64,000 nt of DNA from Nymphaea colorata (taxonomy: Eukaryota > Streptophyta > Magnoliopsida > Nymphaeales > Nymphaeaceae): positions 23,062,802 to 23,126,801 of the forward strand of contig NC_045145.1 in the NCBI RefSeq assembly GCF_008831285.2. Direction: 5' to 3'. How positions within the stretch are numbered: the first letter of the stretch is position 1; the number at the start of each line of letters is the position of its first letter. The position numbers and the translations under genes were made by a program. Below are positions 918 through 55,348 of this stretch, one piece after another. The notes under the pieces are model-generated. The model saw nothing but the letters and a program-made list of their open reading frames with translations, ran no database searches and had not been told where the DNA came from.

Positions 918-3900
918 AAAAAAAAAGAGAAAAAAAGAAAACCCTTACTGCACAAATCATAGAGGCATATTCTAGTGTAGTTAATTAGAACACAGTGGAA
1001 TTCGTGCGTGTAGCTTTGAACATTCAAGAATGTATAATACAAAGGTTGGAGAACATGGCTTTGGATGGTCACCAATGTGAAGCAATGGGCACATTATATT
1101 GCATATAATACTTTTGAGAAAGAATCATTAATGGTAGGTGACCAAATAAGAAATGGGGGGAAATTTGACAACAAATCTTTTTTTTCTTTTTTTTTTAAAC
1201 AGAGAAAAGTTGTAAACTTTGGATTGTATCTTCACTTATTATGACAATCGATACCACCCATTTGTTAATTTGTTTTTCCAATCTTTCATGATTAATGTCA
1301 ATGAGTGTCAAATTTGATTATCTATGTGGGCAAAATTTATAAAGGTTTTTTTTTCACCTTTACAAAGCAAAAATTGATTGGAAGGATTGTATATACCATG
1401 AAAAATGACATTATATAGTTGGAGTACTTGAGAAACAAAAGGGGGAGATGATAAAAGGGAATCCTTGTTGTCACTGGTGCATATTTTCTTTCCAGTCATA
1501 GGTAATACCTACCCAAATGGTTGTGCATTACGCCCCCGTGACACCAAGTAGAAAATACATGGTCCATTTCACTAATGAATAACAGAAAAATACAATAATT
1601 TATATATTTAGACTAAAAGCAAATGTAATGCTACCATCACTGCATTGAAACAAATCAACTTGGAAAATAAGAACTTCTCAATTTGGTAAATGTGTTAAGT
1701 CTTGCATTTAGTTTTCCAAGGGAAATAAAAATGCCCTCCTTTTTTGTTCACAAATAACTTGTATTGGTAAATGCGAAGCCATATGTTTCCACAAAATTTT
1801 CCTCACTATTGGAGATATTTATCCTTTATTAAATTTTTAAATCTGTTCTTATCTTTTCTTTTTTTTTAGACAAGTTTATTTTTTAGGTTAAGGCTGTTCA
1901 GATGCAAAGCTGCTCCTTTCCTTTTTATTAATAAAGAATGAAAAATAAAAATACATCCTTGAAAAAAAAAATGATTGAGTACTAGCCTAAAGCTTTGGCC
2001 AAAGGATCAACAAGAGACTTAAAGACCTCACTGCAAGATTTGCAACTCCTAATTATAGTCTTATTCTTAGCCATATGTAGGGGTTAGTACCTCACCTTGG
2101 CTTTTATAAATTATGAACTTTTTGTTCCAACATTTGCTTCCAACATTTAGGTACTAGGGATGTCAAAGAATCAAATTTGAATAGGATAAACTCATAATCG
2201 TATCTATTCTTTTGCATAATCTGCATGCTTGGAATTGAATTCAGATTCAAATATAAACAAACAAACAAACAAAAAATCATATCTAAATTTTAATATGATT
2301 CTGATATCCAATATCACAATCTGAATCTGAATCCAAATTTTGAACAATATCTGGCTGATTTTCAAAAGGTAACGGCATTGGATATATAATGTTTTTTCAA
2401 AACTAGATATCATGTGAACCCAAAACTCATCTGTTGTCTCTTCTTCAATCCGAAGCCGACCCACTTTATTAATCGGATACTATTTTTTTTATATCCAATT
2501 TTTTTTTAGAACTATCCAATTGGCTATTGGATCAAACCTGGATACATTGACATCCCTATCTTCCACCAAATAAGTTTAACTATAGCTTCCCTAGGTGCTG
2601 AAGCAGTATTGGACCTTGGGTATAAAGGGGAGACAAGGAGAAGGGAAGAGAACCTTCAATCGTTTGATTGCTATCCATTGGGACATGACAGATACAATGC
2701 CCTGTTTATCATACTACTGTCATGTCCTCATGGACAATGATGTTTTTTGTCTATCGTTTGATGATTTTAGGAACATAACACTATATTTCTCTTGTCCAAT
2801 GTTTGTTTCACACATGTCTATTCTGTCACACTTGTTTGAAGTTTTTCTTTGTTTTGTCAAATCTATCCATTCTAGCTAATGTTTGTGCCTTCTACGGTTA
2901 GTTATGTCTATCCTGTCTACTGTTTGTTTATGCTATATTCGAATTGTTTGTTATATCCATTGTTTCTGTTTTCTACGATCAGTTTTGTCTATTATATTCT
3001 CTCAATTTAAATAGTGTTTAAGATATATTAAACTTAACATAAATTTCAAATTTTGTTTGAAGTTTAACTTCAAATTTTTAATGTTTTTAATTTTATGCTC
3101 TTTTAAAAGTTTCAATTTAAATGCTTTAGTTTGTCTTCAATTTTTTAATTTTTGTTTTTTTGCTTAAAGTTTCAATGCTTATGGTGGCAATTTTCGTGGA
3201 ATCAGGTTTTTTTCATGAGTTTCTATTTTTTCTATTTAAGTTTAAATTTCAAGGATTTTGAATTAGCTAAATTGTAGTTTGGTTTTAAATCTAATTTAAA
3301 AGTTTTAATATGCGTTTTAAATTTGAGGTCTTGGAATTCTATTGTCTTATATCCAATTTTAATATTAGATATTTTTTAACCTTGAGGTATGAGTTTAATG
3401 TTTTTATATTGTAACTATAACTTTTTCAAAAATAAGCTTTTCTACATTCTAATTTTATCTTTTTTACATTTTTTTTAATTTGTGTTATGTGTTTTTTTTT
3501 TATAAATTTCAGGTTTATTTGCATCTCAAATTTGGCATGTTTGTATGAATTTTATAAATCAAATTTTTTAATTGAAGATATGAACAGTACTTTGAAATTT
3601 TAATTTCGTGCTTTGAAGTTACTTACGTTTTCGTATTCATTTTTTTAGGTTTTGCTTCAGATTTTGCCTTATAATCTATTTTTTAGTATTCAATTAATTT
3701 TGTGCTTTTTTGCTTTCCTTTTTAATTTTTGTTTTAAATTTGTGTTTTGAGTCTATGCTTCATTCTTTGGGTGTTTAAATAGCTATTTCATAATTTATCA
3801 TATAAGTTCATAATTTCAATTGCCTTATTTAGCCACAATTTTTTGAATTTTGTGCCATTTTTTAATGTTAAAGGGTTTGTACCACGAATATTTAACTTTA

Positions 3901-5572
3901 TCATTTGTTTTTAATTTTATCTTCGAACCAGATTCTAAAATTAGTGAATTGTATCTTTCTTCTAGAAGTTTTAATTTTTAGTTTTCTTGTTTTGCTTTTA
4001 AACACGTACTTGAAAATTCTTGTTAAATATATCTTTTTATGAATTACAAATTTTAGTACATTCTTGAATATCTGAAGAATCTGGAGTGCTTGTCACCTAC
4101 AACCTTAAATCTAATTTCAAATTTTTAACATAATTTTTGAATTTGAGGCCCTTTTATGTTTGTAGTTTCGATCCATGTTATATACAAATCTTGAATTTCA
4201 AGTGTTGTCGGGCCGACCCGGGCCTTATAATATTAAAAAAAATTATTTTTAAATTTAATACTATATATGTTATTATTTAAAATATTAATTTAGATTAAAA
4301 ATTAATTTTATAATTAAAAAATACTTTTTAATTGTAAACGGGCCCGGCCCAATTCCCACCCCTAAAAAAAACCAATCAATTTTCTGGTGCACATATAAAA
4401 TTACTACATGATTCGTTATTAGGTCCTTGTCTATTGCCACCAAATCTCATGCAACTATAGTCGATCAAGTTTCTTGGAGCAATAATATAGTTTTTTTATA
4501 ACATGTTCGAATAAAATTGCTCAGCAATTTTTGATGTCATTATCTCTTATAGGGCCTGGCAATTATGGACAGATTATACTCTCTTCTAAAATTATTTTTG
4601 TTGCACAATTTTTCGATTGAGTTTCAAAATCTATGGCGTTTGGTTGATCAGATAAAGGATAGAAGAAAGCAACTGTAGAAAATGGGTTACGTTCGTGCTC
4701 GCACTTTGTAATTGTGAGTTCGGTTAAGCTTTTTGGAGTGTGTAGTTAATTAATTAAAACGCTTTTTCTTTTTTAGATTAAAAAAAAAAACACTATGAAT
4801 TAGAAGTGTCACGGGCCGACAACTCCGGACCGTGCGGCGCGGCAAACTCTCGCCAGTAAGCCGCAAGCCAAAAGGACTGTACAGACTCTAGACGCAGGAG
4901 AACAGGAAGAATCGTTCATATAATTAATTTAAAGAAAATGGAAGAAAAAAACAATTTCTGTTTATGCTATTTCTATATGAAACCACATGTCAATATGTAT
5001 GAAAACAGTATAACAAACAAAATGCATACTCCAAAAGGGAATGTTATGCCTCGTAGTTGGGTATAGTTAAGACAAGTCAGCCAGACTCCATTTATATCCT
5101 TAATTGCTTTTGAAAAAACAGAATCAATTTGGTTCGGTCCCTTTTCCTTTTTGTTTATTTTGAAAAATTTGTGGAATAACAAAGAATCAATTCTTATGTG
5201 CTTATTGGATCTTAGTTACTGATAAATTTTGATATACTTATCGAATCTTCATTTAATTTTGGAGCCAATAATTATGGTTATCCAATCATTTGGGAAACAT
5301 GAATCATGTTTATCTGTAAGATCTATGTTTAGGTACTGTTACTTCTTGACAAGCGGAAGAAGCAAAAAATTTGGTTTCAAAAAATGAAAATTCAATCAGG
5401 TAAACTTATATAATTTTGTTGATTTTGCTAATAAGACTGGTTATTACCATAGTTTCATGAGCAAATAGATTGCAGATAGTCGAGTAGTTGGTAGGCAGTC
5501 ATTCATCAACAAACAAAAATTGACAGACTTATGTTAGGAATCCAGGAGTTGTCATTCATCATATGAGACTAA
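583..5572 (+). repeat. Segmental duplication, copy 1 (about 5 kb)
   Basis: This block is nearly identical, in direct orientation, to 10384-15233. For example 1081-1500 matches 10871-11280 and 2595-4200 matches 12370-13990, with only scattered substitutions and small indels. Homology stops at 5572 and 15233. The block is AT-rich and contains no credible coding exon; the short open frames in it have neither protein-like composition nor splice support. It contains a 404-bp hAT-type MITE (2155-2558) and a GC-rich 'cgggccgacccgggcc' motif at 4209-4224, which faces 'gggcccggcccaattcccacccc' near 4340-4362 and looks like a decayed DNA-transposon end. An (AG)n run lies near 887-914. Confidence 0.85.
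2155..2558. mobile_element. hAT-type MITE (duplicated copy 1)
   Basis: The element starts TAGGGATGTCAA and ends TTGACATCCCTA, a perfect 12-bp terminal inverted repeat of the Ac-like TAGGGATG type. The interior is noncoding and rich in 'gatatcc' and 'aatcagat'-like motifs. The 8 bases on either side (TTAGGTAC and TCTTCCAC) do not match, so no target duplication is preserved. The same element is in the second block copy, so it inserted before the segmental duplication. Confidence 0.65.
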
Positions 5573-6031
5573 CAGATAAAATGCACCGGCGACGGTTTGC
5601 TGCTGAAATGGAATGCTGAAAAAAAAAAGAACTATGGCTGAACAGAGGAGCAGGAACTTGCATAAGAGAGACCTATGTGACGATTGTGCAGAGAAACCAA
5701 GGTTGCATAAGAAAATATGAACCTTGGCTCTGGTACCATGAAAAAAGAAAGCAGAAGGTGACACAGGCAAGTGAGTAAATCTCTTGCTATATATGATTTG
5801 AAAGAGTTTTCGTTTTATTTATAATGTTTATACGGTTGATACAGAAATGGTTACAAGATACAACGTGATGAGGCAGCTATACATATGGTAAAGAGTTGCA
5901 ACATTTGAAAACCTTCTCTTCCTGGGATGAATCTTCACACGGCAATTCCTGATTGCTAATCTTCATTTCTTCCTTTAAAGCACGAAACCAAACGGACCAA
6001 ACCTCTGTTCTGGGTGCTTCTTCTTCCCCAC

Positions 6032-6571
6032 TCAAAGCGACGCGAGATAACTCATGCATACTCCCGCTGTAATTAGAACTGCCACAGTTGTGATGAATAG
6101 GGAAACAACCCGAAGACAATTTAGACAGATCCCACTCGTTTCCAGGTAAAGAGCAAAGATCCGCCAATACAACGTGAGAAGCAAACCGATGGCCATCAGG
6201 AAAAAGACTGCTTCCAAAGGAAGGCCAAGCCAAGCAGCAGGCAGCGCCTTCACCAAGCACACTGATACAAGCCCCACAATCCAACTGCACTGAATAGCAA
6301 TGAGAGTCGAACCTACGGCACCCCAATCAATCAAAGCCTGCGATTGCAGCCCATCGTTATGTGATGAAGAAGGACCGGGCAATGGTAGAGAGGAGGAAGA
6401 ATCACGGAGGCGGGTAGACGTAGAAGCGACGGGCGACACGGCAGTTGAGGGATGTAAGGAGTTTGAATTCTCTGAGACCTCGCCAGATTCGACGTCACGG
6501 AAGGACGATGGGAACGACACGATGTTCCTCAGCCTCCGGGCAATGGCAACAACTAAGAGCTTGGAAGCCAT
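6032..6571 (-). CDS. Small membrane protein of unknown function, 179 aa
   Basis: This is a single-exon frame reading MASKLLVVAIARRLRNIV and ending in SYLASL. The first 80 residues are polar and Ser-rich. Three hydrophobic segments follow at roughly residues 85-107, 112-137 and 152-178, so it is probably a small multi-pass membrane protein. I do not recognise the family. A TATA box lies 84-91 bp upstream of the ATG on the same strand, and the frame is more GC-rich than the surrounding repeats, which supports a real gene. It sits between the first copy of the 5-kb duplicated block and the giant inverted repeat, and repeat remnants lie within 180 bp of its start. No second copy of the gene accompanies the second block copy in this window. 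An additional downstream intron cannot be excluded. Confidence 0.55.
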   Translation of the reverse strand: MASKLLVVAIARRLRNIVSFPSSFRDVESGEVSENSNSLHPSTAVSPVASTSTRLRDSSSSLPLPGPSSSHNDGLQSQALIDWGAVGSTLIAIQCSWIVGLVSVCLVKALPAAWLGLPLEAVFFLMAIGLLLTLYWRIFALYLETSGICLNCLRVVSLFITTVAVLITAGVCMSYLASL

Positions 6572-6654
6572 GAAGCTAGCTAGCTATTCTCCGAATGCAC
6601 TAAACTCTCATGTTGTGAATGAAGCAGTGTGAGAAACGCATAAGAGAAGCTGCG

Positions 6655-6662
6655 TATTTATA
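6655..6662 (-). promoter_or_regulatory. TATA box of the 179-aa membrane protein gene
   Basis: On the minus strand the sequence reads TATAAATA, lying 84 bp before the ATG at 6571. A start site 25-35 bp downstream would give a 5' UTR of about 50-60 bases. This is a motif call only. Confidence 0.5.
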
Positions 6663-6744
6663 GAGTTGGGAGACGCCCCAACAGTTAGTCCGGAGGCCTT
6701 TTACTCTCCTTTCTCGACTGTCAAGAAACATATGAAAAGGCTGT

Positions 6745-6841
6745 AATGGAGCACTAAGGTTCGGTGGTAGATCCCTGCTGAGAATATGTTTCTTTTTCTG
6801 CGAAGAAAAAGATGGCACACTAAGGTTCGGTGGTTAACGTT
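6745..6841. repeat. Remnant of the 92-bp palindrome-centre repeat
   Basis: The motif 'gcactaaggttcggtgg' appears near 6751 and again near 6816, with 'ctgagaatatgtttctttttctgcg' pieces between. These match the tandem unit found at 8642-9065 in the centre of the large palindrome. The remnant lies 180-270 bp upstream of the membrane-protein gene, directly outside the left palindrome arm. Confidence 0.7.
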
Positions 6842-8816
6842 TAAAGCCCAATGGAGCAGCTCTTTGTCGGTCTAGTGTTTAGCCTATTTGGCTGGACAAG
6901 TCTATTCGACCAATGGCCACAAGAAAAACCAGAAAAGAAAACCATACTATTTATATACTTCGTTTATACAAAATAGTCAGATATCTATTTCATGAGTACA
7001 GGTGTGACGTGCACAAGCCTGTATGATCAGTGGCCGCAAGAAAAACATAAAAGTAGTAAAATAGAACCATAATATACATTTTTATGTATTTATATATGTT
7101 GTATGTACAAAGCATTCAGACATGTTTTTAATGAGCGCAGGCATGGTGTGGATGCAGGTGCAGCACTGGCATGTGTGTGTGTATAGTATGTACATATATA
7201 TTCACACACGAAGGATTCATACGCAATTGAAGTTATTGAACTAACAGATTCACCTGCACCTGCACCTGAGTTGAGTTGGGTGCAGCGACCATTTGACTAG
7301 TTTGTGTGATATAGACACATATACAAGTATCTAAAGATGTTATTTATGTTTATATATGTGTATAATGCGCAGACATTCCCTTCCACTTTTTAATGATTTG
7401 GTTAAAAAAAAAAAAAATTCAGGAGGAACGTGATTAAGAGCTTGAGAGTCTTGTTGAAGAGGTCCATAAATTGGAAATCCGTATTCTCCCTGAAGTGCTA
7501 TGTGTTGACGTAAAGACAATTACTCAATATGCCTGATACGCTTGTGGGAAATTGTCACTGCTATATAATATTTTGTAAATGAGTGAAATGCTTTACCTTT
7601 GGGAATATCCATGCCGGGGGAACCTCCATGAAAGCTTCTTTATTTATGTTTTCATTTTGTCATTCATTTAACATACATTTGATTAAGTTATGCTATATAT
7701 AAAACAGTGAGTGAGCTACGGTAGTTCAAAATTTTCAGCATCTCAGGACAGAAACCAATATGGTAGATCCAAACTCCAAACAACTCATAACATGAGAAAG
7801 GGTTATCAATCGATGTTTCTTCACCCCCCTTCCCTTTTTCAAAGAAAAAAAGCCATGGTTTTCCTTCCTCCCGCAAGTCACTAGAGCTGTTATTCCCATA
7901 ATTTATTGTTTATGTTAAACTTATTTATTATTTCTTTTACGAGTTGGGTTGATCGAAATTAAGAATTTGATATCAACGAAGAGCTGATGGTTTAGAGATC
8001 AAAGCAGAAAACATGCAGAAACCCAGCTCCTGCAAAAACGTCATGTGCAGTTTTTCCCTAGAAAATCGTTTTCAGCAACTGTTTCTAAATGTCTTTCCGG
8101 CCCCAAAGATAAGTCCATATCAAGCTCACAAAATGTATAGTCTGCATACTAGTCTAGTCCGCATACTTGCCACTTAATAGATGTGTCAAGTGGCAATGTT
8201 TTGTTAAAGCAATAGATGTGTCAAGTGGCAATGTTTTGTTAAAGCAATATCTGTGTCAAGTGGCAAGTATGCAGACTAGTTAGAAAAGAAGAAGATCACA
8301 TCTATTGCTTTATAACAAAACATTACTAGATGTTTTGTTAACATTGCCACTTTACATTGCCACTTTACACATCTATTAAGTGGCAAGTATGCAGACTAGT
8401 TAGAAAAGAAGAAGATCACATCTAGGCACCGCGAGACTTCTTTTTCCAGGTGAATTTTGTTTCAGACTAGAAAAGCTGGTTAGCATTTGGGTAGCCGGTG
8501 TCACCGGAATTGGTTTGAATCGGTTCATTAGAATTGAATGGGTAGCAAATGGGCTTCACTCATCAGCATGCTTGTTATTTTCTCAAATTTTAAAAGTTTT
8601 TTTTTTGTTTTTATAATTATTCTTATATACATGATTAAGAAAATATGTTTCTTTTTCTGTGAGGAAAAAGATGGAGCACTAAGGTTCGGTGGTATGTTTA
8701 CCTGGATAGACGGGGTTAACGTTTACCCTGCTGAGAATATGTTTCTTTTTCCGCGAGGAAAAAGATGGAGCACTAAGGTTCGGTGGTATGTTTATCCTCG
8801 GTGGTATGTTTATCCT
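6842..8816 (-). repeat. Left arm of a giant inverted repeat
   Basis: Read on the minus strand, this arm matches 8817-10383. Examples are 6842-6990 against 10240-10383, 7150-7270 against 9950-10060, 7590-7860 against 9415-9660, and 8440-8640 against 9065-9280. It is longer than the right arm because of local tandem expansion near 8140-8430 and small insertions. The outer boundary is sharp at the 'taaagcccaatgg' end. No coding exon was seen; open frames here are mirrored in the other arm and are not protein-like. Confidence 0.85.
8140..8430. repeat. Short tandem and inverted repeats within the left arm
   Basis: The motif 'gcaatagatgtgtcaagtgg' recurs near 8170-8260 and is followed by inverted versions near 8300-8370. 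The phrase 'agtatgcagactagttagaaaagaagaagatcacatct' appears at 8265-8303 and again at 8385-8423. The right arm carries only a single shorter version (9290-9390), so this is expansion on one side. Confidence 0.7.
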
Positions 8817-27436: not shown

Positions 27437-30400
27437 ATGGCATCGCATGATGCGGTTCTTACTCTCTCCCCTTTCGACATGACGAGGACTCGGCGGAGGG
27501 TTGCGATGGAACGAATCGTCGGAGGACGAGGAGGCCGAAACCAGTGGCCGATCCCTGCGATGTCCTGCCCTTTCTCCAGGTAAGCCTTCGAGGTCTCCGG
27601 AATCCTCGAAAATTACTGCTTCCCGGCGACATCATGTACCACGCGCCCGCTGTCGGATGGCGAAAAGGCGAAGGAGCTGGTTGGGTCGCCGGCAGACACC
27701 GAAGTTCGAACGTCTTTGGTTTGGGGTTTCTTGGTTGGGAGATTGAGGTGGACTGTGAATTTGCGTTGTTCATCCTTGAAGCAGCGGTTGTTTTCTTATT
27801 TCTGACTTTTTCTGCAGAAAATTGAGGAAAGGAGGGAGGGGTGCGAGAGAAGAATGCGGTGTTGTCAGGTGCACGATGGATGCGACTTTCGGCGGTGGCG
27901 GTGGTGGTGTAGGTGAGGCTAAATCGGATCTTATTTGTTTTTTTGGTTTTGGTTGATGTTCAAGAACTCTCGTTGTTGTTGTTGATTACGTATTGATTAA
28001 AAAGAACTACCGAAAATATGGGTAGTAGAACTTCTTAAGTTCATTGAGGACGAAAGTGTTGCATTATGCCAAAGTGCGCCTCCTTCTCTGGGCGATATAA
28101 GGGAGGTGCTTATCGATGTACTTGTATGTCTACTGATTCCCAACCCTAAGGCTAAGATTGGATTCGCACCAAAATTCGAACATTTTTGCATTTCCTTTTT
28201 AGCACCAGGAGATATTGTGGACCGCCTCTCAATTCCGGGTGTCTTGGTAGATTGCTTTATCAGGTAATTTGGGATGTTGGAGGGAGAACTTTTTTTCTTT
28301 GTGTAATTCATCAATTTGGGGTCCGGTGGCACATCCAATACTTGCAGTCAGTGTTTTTTGTGAATCTCGTTTTGGTTTGTCATTTTGGCATGTAAGAATA
28401 TATGACGGGGGTGAATCTTCTGGCAGAAGGTCGCCTTGACAGTATGGAGCAAACGGATAATGTTTGTAAATTCCTTTGTTAACGTCACCTATCAAACTTG
28501 TGATTTTCTATGACAGAGTCTCAGAGAAATCTGTTGGTGCTGTCTGAGTTCATGAGTTGTCTCATATTCCATCGCCTTGAGTAGCGGTGTCACTGCCATT
28601 ACTTCCTGGGATTGGCCATGAGATGTACAAATTTTTTCTTCAACTGTTCTATTTAGTCATTTTTGTAGAGATGTTTATTTCATTCTTATGACATTGTTGC
28701 TGGAGGTTATGACATCATTTAAGCAGAGGCTAGTTTGGTTCTTTAGTTCTTCTATACTTTTCGTTGTGTGTTAGGAAAGACCTTTATAGTTCCAGATGCA
28801 TTTGTTAACGGTGATATTACGGCCTTTATGATCCATTAGTCAAGGGATATCAGATTTTTATTTTGTTGTAAAATCCTTGATGCAAGAAAAGTCCTTTTTG
28901 AAGGTTTCTTTGTTTGAATGTGACGGGGGAGATTCCTCTGGCTGAAGAATCCCCTGACAGATGTGGAGCAAGTTCGCGATGCTTGTATATTCCTCTGTTA
29001 ACGTCACATAGGAAACTGATGGGCACTTGTCAGCTTTGTTGCTGTGCGTTTCCGTCAGTGGTCTCATATTCCATCGCCTTGAGTAGCAGTGTCACTGCCA
29101 TTACTTCCTGGGATTGGCCATGAGACATATATTTAAATTTTTATGTGTAATCATATTTCCATATCGTGGCCTTAAAGCTTTGTCTCCTTTGTTTTCCTTT
29201 TCCAATGTTGTAATCCTTTATGCGGCCAGGGATGAAGCTTCTGAAATACCATCTTTCGGGACTGAAAGGCTATGAAGCCTTGATGCCATTCTGCAATTCT
29301 GAGGCCATGTGAAATGTTTTGTGCAATCTACTTTTAGTGGTTTTGTTACAGTTCTTTGTCTTATCATCTGGACGTGTTGCTCCATTCCTATCAGCGTCAC
29401 TAAAATCATACATGCATACATACATATATATATATATATAAAACTAAGAATTTGAAAATTATCAAATTTCTTAAAAAAGTACTAAAAAAGGCGCATGGCA
29501 CTCATGAATTGATCACTAAATGTAATCAGCTCGCCACGGTTTGGGTTGATTCAGCCCCGTTCTTGTGACACTGGTTCCTGTATCGTAATGTATTGCTTTG
29601 ATTCCAAATTAGGTTTAGGTGCTTCTGCATTCAGCGGCTCAGCATATTCTCAATTACTTATGTCTGTTTGTACTTTATACTAGTCTTATGCAAGAAGATA
29701 TTCAAAAGATTATGTAACTAATGTAACATTTCAACAGCTGTACCAAAATTTCCAAGGATGCATGTATGGGATCCTTATAGACGCTTGGGAGTCACTCGCG
29801 ATGCTTCTTCTGAAGAAATTCGAGGAGCACGATATTTTCTGTTGGATCAATATGCTGGCCATGAGCCAAGTGAGGAGTCCATAGAAGGTGCTTACGAGAA
29901 AATCATAATGGCCAGTTTCAGACAAAGAAAGAAAACAAAAATTAATCTGAAGACTAGGCTAAAGAAGAGGGTAGAGGAATCCCCTCCTTGGTTTAAGAGC
30001 CTGCTGGAATTTGTTGAGCTACCACCAACTGACGTTATCCTTAGGAGATTTGCTCTCTTTGCTTTCATGGGAGGCTGGAGTATCACAAATTCTGCTGAAA
30101 CAGGCCCTGCTTTCCAGGTATGTTATTCATGGTTGTAGTTTGACTATAAAAAATATATATAGTTTTAGTTAATTCTAATTTCTTTTCACTAAAAAGAAAT
30201 TCTACTTGGTGCTTGTAGTTTGGGTATCTTACTTTTCTTTTGGCTGTGAATAATTAATGGGTTGATGTCAATTTCAAATCTGTGGATACATTTAAGTAGT
30301 CACCATCTTAGCTCGTTAGCATCATTTGCAGTAATCCTTAATACTGTTATAGTGTAACTTCATCAGGACACAATTACAAAATACAAAACTTAAGTACTAA

Positions 30401-30922: not shown

Positions 30923-32573
30923 AATGGGCTTGAGAGAAAGTGGGTATGGTTTAAAGTGTTGGTCGGTTGACCTTTTTAAACTTTTTTCATGTCTTTATAA
31001 AATTTCTTTACTCATATGGGCTTGAGAGAAAGTGGGTATGGTTTAAAGTGTTGGTCGCTTGACCTTTTTAAACTTTTTTCATGTCTTTATAAAATTTCTT
31101 TACTCATATGTTGCTTAAATTACAAATATAGATACAAAAATAGCCTATATTTCTGTAGACTCTTTTTAAATCCGCAGAGTGGGTTAAAAGTTGTCATTGT
31201 TTAGATTTTAAGCCTCCAGACCTCTTTCTGGCGCATTTGAGTGACGCTCAAAACTGGGTTTTGACAAAACAATTTTCACGAAAGGGAGTAAGTAATCTGA
31301 ACCCCTAGGTTTTCCACAGAAAATGCCATCTTGGGTGTGGCCCCTTAACGAGGTTTCAGAAAATTTCTTAAAAATCCACAAAGTTCCAACAAAACCTATT
31401 TCTTACAAAACGGCTATCCTTTTGAGGTTGTCATTCAAACTCTATCTTACACTTAAATTTAATTATTCTTCGTCACTTTGATAATCATTAAATAAAACAT
31501 CATTTTTATCATTTTAGTTAGTTATCTTTTATGTCTTAGTTCGTCTTAGGTTGTCGATTATTTTGCTTTATCTAATTTTTAGGTTTTCTTTTCCATTTTA
31601 AAAATGAGATTTTCCTGAAAGAAACAACTTTGCAGGAAAATACCTGGTAAAAACATTGCTGTTGAATCCTAAGAACAGTATTTATAGCTGTAGTTTGAAT
31701 AATAGCAGAGTTAGTTTCTTTAAAACTGAGACAAGGCTTCTATTTTTTAAGAATGGTGAGAAATCAAGGGATGTATTCCTTTTCATGATTTTGCCATGAA
31801 TCTCTTTCTCGCTCTTAACAGTTGAGGGCTATTAAGGAAGCTGCTATAGGAAGCTCTAGTGAAAAGAAGAAAGGTTGGGCAGTTCCTCTCCTGTGAAAAG
31901 TGAGATAAAGCATGATTCGAGGAGAAAAGCGAACTTTTCCACAATTCAACAGTTCTCTAGAGTTTTCTGGAGTCCGATTATTTGTTGTCTCTTTTCAAGT
32001 GGTTTGAACCTTGTTGAACATTGCATGCTTCGCTTGCTATAGTTTCCTTGAACTTCATTGGCAAAGATGCCAAAGATATTGTATTTGTTATTACATGTTT
32101 AATTCCAATGTATCTGAGAGCTGATAGATGTAAACTGTGAGGTAAATCTAAGAAAATCACTCGTAGTGGCCGGATGATACATGGTACGTTAGTGTAAATT
32201 TTTGTCAGTAGATCGATGCTCGTTTATAGTTATGTCTGGTTTTATCCTGTGTACCAGGTTGCAGTTTCCCTTGCGGCTTGCATTTACTTTCTAAATGACA
32301 AGATGAAGAGTATCGCCAGGGCTTCCATAACTGGGTAGGCTATAATTATGAATCATTAGTATGATTTTTTGTCATCGTTTGTTCATCTGTCTTATTCTCA
32401 TCTTCACTATCTTTTCTCTCAGATTCTTGGCGCTGGCGGTTGGATGGATATGCGGCTCTACAGTAGTTCCATTTATTCCCACTTTTCTTATCCGGCCAAC
32501 GTGGAGTCTCGAACTCCTCACCTCTTTGGTTGCTTATGTATTTCTTTTCCTTGCTTGCACTTTTCTTAAATAA
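27437..32573 (+). CDS. CPP1: Plastid J-like domain membrane protein, CPP1 family
   Basis: There are five exons: 27437-27579, 27818-27912, 29738-30117, 32258-32334 and 32423-32573 (846 nt, 281 aa). All phases agree and all introns are GT-AG. Residues 1-79 look like a plastid transit region: Arg/Ser-rich, then [19 protein letters not shown]-like domain follows ([20 protein letters not shown] near residue 88, [19 protein letters not shown]). It lacks the HPD motif of true J proteins. Three or four hydrophobic segments follow ([63 protein letters not shown]). This is the CPP1/CDF1-CJD1 family; CPP1 is a chaperone-like factor for protochlorophyllide oxidoreductase in plastid membranes. Which paralogue this is cannot be settled here. 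The start was chosen for its GCCATGGC context, TATA spacing and phase match. Intron 2 hosts a snoRNA and other structured elements. Confidence 0.88.
28403..28487 (+). ncRNA. Structured intronic element A, copy 1
   Basis: This lies in intron 2 of the CPP1-like gene. A 5-bp closing stem (TGACG with CGTCA) encloses two hairpins. The first has GGTG/CGCC and ATCTTCT/AGAAGGT stems with a GGC loop. The second has GGA/TCC and CAAAC/GTTTG stems. Copy 2 (28919-29008) is only moderately similar in sequence but keeps the same fold with changed base pairs (CAAG/CTTG, GGGG/CCCC, ATTC/GAAT, ACAGA/TCTGT). Box C/D motifs are not convincing. An H/ACA reading on either strand is possible but unproven. The transcribed strand is assumed from the host gene. 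Confidence 0.4.
28560..28623 (+). ncRNA. Conserved 64-nt intronic element B, copy 1
   Basis: The element is bounded by a 6-bp closing stem (TCTCAT and ATGAGA). Inside is a hairpin made of GAGTA/TACTT and GCGGT/ACTGC stems around a GTC loop, leaving two single-stranded pockets as in an H/ACA-type hairpin. ACA occurs 4 bases after the end (28627-28629). It is identical to copy 2 at 63 of 64 positions, although sequence directly outside is unrelated. The only difference (G/A at 28587) turns a G-U pair into an A-U pair. Strong local conservation argues for a functional RNA; its class is not established. Confidence 0.5.
28919..29008 (+). ncRNA. Structured intronic element A, copy 2
   Basis: The closing stem here is 7 bp (TGTGACG with CGTCACA). 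The internal hairpins are GGGG+ATTC/GAAT+CCCC and ACAGA+GGA+CAAG/CTTG+TCC+TCTGT. Compared with copy 1, many substitutions preserve pairing, which is the main evidence for an RNA fold. ACA follows within the closing stem end (29006-29008). Confidence 0.4.
29062..29125 (+). ncRNA. Conserved 64-nt intronic element B, copy 2
   Basis: This copy has the same length and closing stem as copy 1 and differs at one base. It is extended by one pair (GTCTCAT/ATGAGAC). The preceding 50 bases form another hairpin (GGAAAC+GCAC with GTGC+GTTTCC, 29011-29053) that has no close counterpart before copy 1. Confidence 0.5.
29224..29306 (+). ncRNA. snoR39BY: Box C/D snoRNA, snoR39BY-like (25S and 5.8S rRNA guides)
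   Basis: The closing stem is GGCC (29224-29227) with GGCC (29303-29306). Box C is GGGATGA (29229-29235, one mismatch to RTGATGA), box D' is CTGA (29262-29265), a C'-like TATGAAG follows, and box D is CTGA (29299-29302). The sequence before D, ATTCTGCAATTC, is the exact complement of GAATTGCAGAAT in plant 5.8S rRNA. The fifth base before D selects the G of AATTG. The sequence before D', ACCATCTTTCGGG, complements CCCGAAAGATGGT of 25S rRNA and selects the G of CCCG. From memory, plant snoR39BY is described as guiding 2'-O-methylation of both 25S and 5.8S rRNA; the exact name needs a database check. It sits in intron 2 of the CPP1-like gene on the same strand, so it is probably released from the intron. 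Confidence 0.85.
30884..31107. repeat. (GA)n run and 92-bp tandem duplication in CPP1-like intron 3
   Basis: A (GA)n tract at 30884-30916 is followed by a 92-bp unit starting at 30924 and repeated at 31016. The units differ at about one position. Nothing coding is involved. Confidence 0.85.
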
Positions 32574-54621: not shown

Positions 54622-55290
54622 CAGGGCATATTCATTTTGGCTATTTTTTACAAGTCCAACCATATGAATGTCTGCACACTGTCCAAAAGTTTTTGTTAGA
54701 AAAATGTGAAAACCCCAATATGTAGAGCAAATTTTATTCGAGTAAAAAGTTTTGCCTCTTGTAAGGTTCCATTGAAACATCAAATTCTCTCTCTTTTATT
54801 GAGTCCGACATTTTTAAGCGTTTGGTCAATTTATTTCGTTAGATCTTTCAAAATACTTGAAACATTTACACACTTAGACGACAGATCTTAAATGAATAAG
54901 TTTGATAAAAGAATTGATCCAATCCAACAGCATTCGCACTTATCACTTTGATGATCTGAACAAGAAATTAGGAGTTGGATTTGGATATGATGTGCGTTCA
55001 GTCCCATGTTGGGGTTTAATAGCACGGAACCCATATATGACTCGTAGACAGGGTTATCCGGATCTATGCTTGACCAGATCTATCGTGAGAAAAGATCATT
55101 TCGAATGTTTACAGGGATCAGAGAAACCAGAAATTATCCACATCCATGATATCTTTATGTGCCCACAGTGAAGGTTCAACCAAGTATGAGCAAGGTCTTA
55201 GTGTGTCACAGATTCAAAATATAACATCTCACTCTGTTTCTCAAACACACACACACACATATACACGCACACGAATGCCAAAAAAAAAAA

Positions 55291-55348
55291 AGAGGACGAC
55301 CTCTCATCCGACTGTCAAAAAAGAGGACGACCTCTCATCCGACTGTCA
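55291..55348. repeat. Two-copy tandem repeat, period 31
   Basis: The unit 'agaggacgacctctcatccg' followed by 'actgtca' occurs twice. Each unit contains a small GAGG/CCTC inverted repeat. No function is apparent. Confidence 0.85.

Follow-up and report, generated by a model that had tools for sequence, protein, structure and literature searches.

A probable plant member of the U17/snR30 H/ACA snoRNA family encoded by tandem intronic units in Nymphaea colorata

We analyzed a 64,000-nt stretch of the Nymphaea colorata genome (NC_045145.1, positions 23,062,802 to 23,126,801 of the forward strand; hereafter the window, which lies on the contig here called C8). The two units, SNORD96 and the host-gene exon described below are on the plus strand, and coordinates are counted from the first letter of the window. 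An exon at 29797..30132 encodes a CPP1-like domain (PF11833, E 7.2e-32), in agreement with the original prediction of a CPP1-like host gene, and the box C/D snoRNA proposed upstream of this exon is genuine, being identified by Rfam as SNORD96 (29223..29307, 53.8 bits against a cut-off of 43). Further upstream, on the same strand as SNORD96, a putative intron carries the two structured units that are the subject of this report. Elsewhere in the CPP1-like gene region, positions 30924-31107 form a 92-nt tandem duplication with 99% identity. A Guanidine-II riboswitch match at 55288-55335 scores 32.3 bits (E 0.012), barely reaching the Rfam cut-off of 32, and, in a plant genome, is most likely due to chance.

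The original prediction had described two copies of a pair of separate elements, A and B, in this intron. Element B (28560-28623 and 29062-29125) indeed differs between the copies at only one position in 64, and folding recovers the closing stem and two hairpins of element A (28403-28487 and about 28918-29009) in both copies. The sequence immediately outside B had been called unalignable, which holds downstream but not upstream, where a further hairpin, M, adjoins B. A, M and B are contiguous in both copies and form one unit of about 220-235 nt per copy (inferred ends), so that A and B are better described as parts of a single A-M-B unit than as two elements. Positions 28400-28623 align with 28918-29125 at 74% identity (E 2e-29), and the likeness of the two units exceeds chance; their M hairpins have diverged, with 25/47 matching positions.

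Unit 1, a predicted U17/snR30-like snoRNA, extends over 28398..28632, its 5′ end being placed at the conservation boundary and its 3′ end three nucleotides beyond an ACA box. From 5′ to 3′ it comprises the 5′ domain A, with two hairpins inside a closing stem (28403..28487); an H-box-like site, CUAUCA, which is one base off ANANNA and single-stranded in the predicted fold (28489..28494); the internal hairpin M (28495..28558), which abuts B; and the 3′ hairpin B (28559..28624), delimited by folding, copy comparison and motif geometry. Within and beyond B are an m1-like motif, AUAUUCCAU (28564..28572), an m2-like motif, UGGCCAU (28613..28619), and the ACA box (28627..28629). Unit 2, a second predicted U17/snR30-like snoRNA recognized by its alignment with unit 1, its conservation at a second locus and its fold, occupies 28917..29134. 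Its A domain lies at about 28918..29009, M at 29015..29059 and B at 29061..29126, with the m1-like and m2-like motifs at 29066..29074 and 29115..29121. Its H-box-like site, AUAGGA (29008..29013), fits ANANNA and shares its first two positions with the end of the closing stem of A, and AUA stands in place of ACA (29129..29131).

A search of the 407.8-Mb genome with positions 28390-29130 returned six matches: the query itself, three strong matches on contig C6 (88, 84 and 84% identity), and a weak match on each of C10 and C4. At 4.49 Mb on C6 both units occur in tandem and are followed by SNORD96, as in the window, and a copy of unit 1 lies at 19.0 Mb on the same contig. Between the window and the 4.49-Mb locus (identities over alignment columns, gaps counted), A1, M1 and B1 of unit 1 match at 79/91, 54/67 and 65/67 columns and A2, M2 and B2 of unit 2 at 72/94, 41/49 and 67/67; the B hairpins proper of unit 2 are identical at 66/66 positions. 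SNORD96 matches at 75/90, whereas the flank and spacer stretches match at only 46/120, 109/291 and 52/126 (38-41%). A, M, B and SNORD96 are thus 77-100% identical between the loci and the spacers about 40%. Since the units have been kept and the spacers have not, A-M-B is conserved as a whole, like the adjoining known snoRNA, and there is good support for the earlier proposal that processed RNAs lie next to a C/D snoRNA. The three hairpins stay together in the same order in all five copies that could be aligned, with B conserved far more strongly than A or M. The duplication that produced units 1 and 2 predates the separation of the two loci, as judged from these alignments: M1 and M2 each resemble their C6 counterpart (51/64 and 40/47), yet resemble each other much less.

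The 4.49-Mb locus belongs to a snoRNA cluster on the minus strand (L007, C6:4489500-4498500, positions 3585-8136), whose members are two snoU31b copies, SNORD33, snoZ196, a snoR5a-like H/ACA RNA (45.5 bits, under the cut-off of 60; E 1.6e-7), the two U17-like units and SNORD96. One snoU31b lies in each copy of an upstream region that, by eye, appears duplicated. Further duplicates of the locus carry decayed B copies, on C10 (L009, 3688-3750 and 4518-4591; 41.8 and 36.5 bits) and on C4 (L010, 4679-4739; 15.6 bits), in which m1, m2 or the stem is altered.

Whole-unit folds consist of A, a short single strand, M, B (0 or 1 base after M) and an open tail, with z-scores of -1.8 and -3.2, compared with -2.0 to -3.8 for single elements. 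In the alignment of five A-M-B copies, 93.4% of the cells of the 72 proposed pairs are able to pair. Both sides have changed in 11/72 pairs (shuffle mean 5.7; as high in 0/500 shuffles), a count that drops to 2-4 when the structure is slid along the alignment. The claim that A keeps its stems through paired changes was borne out by this test, applied to the whole A-M-B, and the extra hairpin M, between the H-box-like site and B, also shows paired changes. We regard the paired changes as support for the structure rather than as proof, because the alignment consists of only a few related sequences, from which the structure itself had been taken. For B alone, both sides have changed in 1/20 pairs, and 146/500 shuffles score as high; B is too conserved to yield a covariation signal, and its structure therefore rests on folding and geometry.

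U17/snR30 is an H/ACA snoRNA required for 18S rRNA processing in yeast and animals. The succession of A, linker, M and B in the units corresponds to a 5′ domain, an H-like box, an internal hairpin and a 3′ hairpin followed by ACA or AUA, which matches the U17/snR30 layout. According to the available sections of PMC7601244, the family is defined by two motifs on the basal sides of the pocket of the 3′ hairpin, m1 (AUAUUCCUA) and m2 (AAACCAU). In all five copies AUAUUCCAU agrees with the canonical m1 at 7/9 letters; the core AUAUUCC is complete and the last two letters are changed, and at letter 8 these units have A where the 14/14 species listed in that source have U. At m2, UGGCCAU retains CCAU and replaces AAA by UGG, and two of the three altered letters pair with plant rm2, the rRNA partner of m2. 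The ends of B read GUCUC-AUAUUCCAU on the 5′ side and GGCCAU-GAGAU or GGCCAU-GAGAC on the 3′ side (GGGAU in one copy). In 5/5 copies the first letter of ATATTCC is position 6 of B and that of CCAT is position 58, each copy having a 7-bp lower stem (G.U counted), and 7 nt after CCAT stands ACA in 3/5 copies and AUA in 2/5 (unit 2 of both loci). The H-box-like sites at the A/M junction are AUAUCA (twice), AUAGGA, CUAUCA and CGAGUA, of which three fit ANANNA and two are off at the first base. A reading with M as the 5′ hairpin and the H box following it was rejected, as only 0 or 1 base separates M from B and no ANANNA occurs there.

As a control, one strand of first-order Markov sequence, 12 Mb in length, yielded 166 motif pairs, one of them with the full stem and none also with ACA or AUA. 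In the window, the motif pairs are the two copies of B plus a pair on the minus strand that forms 2/5 stem pairs, and the pattern including ACA has one match against 0.03 expected. Genome-wide, the exact B pattern occurs at at least eight places, namely the five B copies and three that are unrelated by eye, with none in the reversed control. The canonical type of U17 pattern has eight matches elsewhere in the genome and two in the reversed control; just one of the eight has the full lower stem, against an estimated 0.06 expected. This unrelated hairpin (C1:24460524-24460604; L044, L050) has m1 AUAUUCCUG, m2 GAACCAU and an ACA, lies in the apparent 3′ UTR of a coding gene, and is accompanied by no Rfam snoRNA in the surrounding 1401 bases. 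From its sequence it may be a second U17-like candidate or a chance match, chance being unlikely; as a possible canonical U17 it was set aside without being rejected.

The partners of m1 and m2 in yeast, rm1 and rm2, are 18S positions 801-806 and 836-841 within expansion segment 6 (ES6), as given in the available part of PMC9176245, and a 2025 structure has both paired to snR30 (PMC12095548, available part). Where m1 or m2 varies, rm1 or rm2 is always changed as well, according to the sections of PMC7601244 at hand, and plant m2 would be an example. For the plant side we used 18S letters printed as probes or primers for four eudicots, plants other than the one whose genome is analyzed here: Petunia (...UUAGCAUGGGAUAACAUUAUAG; PMC4464644), tomato (...UUAGCAUGGGAUA; PMC2679016), Arabis (GUUGGCCUUCGGGAUCGGAG; PMC6398851) and Hevea (UGUGUUGGCCUUCGGGAUCGG; PMC3821574), in each case from the excerpt available. 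The Hevea letters are printed as a pre-miRNA primer and were taken as 18S because they match the Arabis 18S primer. They are the forward primer of the pair for 'pre-miRn13', and Hevea miRn13 is, by this sequence match, probably an 18S fragment.

In the fixed register of yeast, m1 UAUUCCAU forms 8/8 pairs with eudicot 18S AUGGGAUA, one of them G.U, and m2 UGGCCA forms 5/6 pairs with UGGCCU, GGCCA being complementary to UGGCC. The canonical motifs reach 6/8 at rm1 and 4/6 (AAACCA) at rm2 on the same letters, and random letters attain both of the fixed-register scores twice in 1,000,000 trials. Where canonical m2 has AACC the units have GGCC, and eudicot 18S carries the corresponding change. Complementarity in a free register is much less striking. 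Shuffled pocket letters (200,000 shuffles) do as well at m1 in 1.2% of cases, at m2 in 30% and at both in 0.36%; the longest run of the 3′ strand of B on the plant rm2 fragment is a different one, with 7 pairs of which 3 are G.U, and a 5-pair run first found in a narrowed test contains 4 G.U pairs. The antisense search against rRNA proposed with the original prediction, made here on eudicot 18S, was favourable in the fixed register and much less so in the free one.

The Rfam models SNORA73 and snR30, which we take to be RF00045 and RF01271, matched neither unit 1 nor either unit within 27900-29760 at E values up to 10, so that the covariance-model check suggested earlier did not lend support, and no box C/D family matched A-M-B in the Rfam searches. 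A 2021 paper, in the part available, describes U17/snR30 as not identified in Arabidopsis. Among the papers listed in searches of the open PMC literature, we found no report of a plant U17/snR30, and one in other papers is possible; a search there with the letters of B gave only an unrelated match. The main text of a 2016 survey of plant snoRNAs (PMC5122169), in the portion available, mentions neither U17 nor snR30. On the protein side, the UTP23_sensor model matched nowhere, 14 control genomes included. The Fcf1 PIN domain matched at three places in the genome, one with two internal stops, and an exon upstream of one of these matches has UTP23 as its best solved structure (E 0.049). The case for Utp23 as a partner of the units is weak.

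On this evidence, each A-M-B unit very probably encodes a plant U17/snR30 H/ACA snoRNA, present as two copies in one putative intron. Its membership in the family is probable by anatomy, motif positions, conservation at the second locus and complementarity to eudicot 18S. Telling against it are the H-box-like sites that depart from ANANNA in 2/5 copies, AUA in place of ACA in 2/5, the changed letters of m1 and m2, the much weaker free-register complementarity, the use of 18S letters from other plants, the lack of an Rfam U17 or snR30 match, the low covariation of B and the separate hairpin on C1. The original suggestion that the elements, which had not fitted cleanly to the box C/D or H/ACA rules, may be atypical or undescribed is probably wrong: A and B each fail as separate RNAs, and jointly A-M-B would fit an H/ACA snoRNA that looks atypical because of the extra internal hairpin and the basal m1/m2 of U17/snR30.

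There is a small chance that the units are instead ordinary or orphan H/ACA snoRNAs that carry AUAUUCC and CCAU by accident and guide pseudouridylation through the distal pocket. They have an H/ACA-like layout with ACA, and in the chosen structure 16 nt separate the top of the pocket from ACA, a spacing inside the 14-16 nt range that the available text of PMC7601244 gives for H/ACA RNAs. The same source notes that some other H/ACA RNAs also carry internal hairpins, so that M is not unique to snR30. Against this stand the exact basal geometry with full stem in every copy, which together with ACA or AUA did not arise in the Markov sequence, and the fixed-register pairing with both plant rm1 and rm2. 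It is improbable that, as the original prediction had envisaged, A, M and B give rise to two or three distinct processed RNAs of an atypical or undescribed kind. Each folds alone, and B is conserved far above its neighbours, but M abuts B and the contiguous order persists in 5/5 copies, and a conserved 3′ hairpin would be accounted for by U17/snR30, going by the published descriptions available.

The several genomic copies, with decayed ones on C10 and C4, could suggest the remnant of a MITE- or SINE-like repeat without RNA function. We consider this very improbable: the decayed C4 copy aligns, weakly, past the unit on both sides, so that a duplicated segment is likelier than a transposed unit, the B copies make up five of the at least eight exact pattern matches in the genome, and it is the units rather than the spacers that were kept beside the same snoRNA. 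Least credible is a microRNA precursor in B. The best loose-threshold Rfam match for A-M-B is mir-2766 (E 0.079), which we rejected, since it scores 19.2 bits against a cut-off of 60; moreover, the fold of B has many bulges and its apical loop is almost as conserved as its arms.

If the units encode U17/snR30, the RNA would be trimmed from the spliced intron beside SNORD96, and its H and ACA boxes would be where the H/ACA core proteins bind. B would pair with ES6 of pre-18S rRNA in its open basal pocket, through the predicted contacts of m1 and m2 with rm1 and rm2, and by analogy with yeast would hold ES6 in an immature fold that permits the early 18S cleavages. Since the pairing involves the basal rather than the distal part of the pocket, B would guide no pseudouridine. 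Homology searches would have missed the RNA because it changed together with plant 18S, AAACCA:UGGUUU becoming GGCCA:UGGCC and the m1 helix growing from 6 to 8 pairs. We think it likely that the plant U17/snR30 was overlooked in this way and that plants would then share their ES6 chaperone with yeast and animals, with no separate pathway. What is newly recognized here, from sequence comparison, is a probable plant member of a family reported as not identified in Arabidopsis. With an actual plant sequence at hand, and its ES6 target predicted, the plant U17/snR30 question is open to search and direct test, and the five copies could seed a covariance model for the annotation of plant genomes.

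Comparison with known systems brings out both the likeness and the peculiarities of the units. In the available parts of the sources, the 3′ hairpin of yeast snR30 (606 nt) reads GCAGU-AUAUUCCUA on its 5′ side and AAACCAU-ACUGC-AG-ACA-UCU on its 3′ side (primers, PMC9176245); AGATTA, which fits ANANNA and which we read as the H box, directly precedes an internal hairpin (PMC9176245) that spans 398 to 531, with the 3′ hairpin following immediately at 532 (PMC5416842). The plant units share with it a lower stem of 7 bp, topped by two pairs between the AU of m1 and that of m2, and the 7 nt from m2 to ACA (AUA in unit 2), and they have an H-box-like site just ahead of an internal hairpin abutting the 3′ hairpin. 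They differ in their far shorter 5′ and internal hairpins, in an m2 that changed together with plant rm2, and in their occurrence as two intronic copies. In human U17 (207 nt) two 5′ stems precede the H box and the internal hairpin is small, and complete vertebrate U17/SNORA73 RNAs measure 203-222 nt (PMC7601244, available sections). The units resemble these in length and in the succession of two 5′ stems, H-box-like site, small internal hairpin, and 3′ hairpin bearing m1-like and m2-like motifs and followed by ACA or AUA; in contrast, m1 is AUAUUCCAU rather than AUAUUCCUA, m2 is UGGCCAU rather than AAACCAU, one stem encloses both 5′ hairpins, and no Rfam U17 model recognizes unit 1. Typical H/ACA guides consist of two hairpins and engage their targets through the distal half of the pocket (PMC7601244, available sections). 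With plant guides such as the snoR5a-like neighbour on C6, the units have the gene cluster and the box class in common, but they carry an extra internal hairpin, and their conserved motifs are basal instead of distal.
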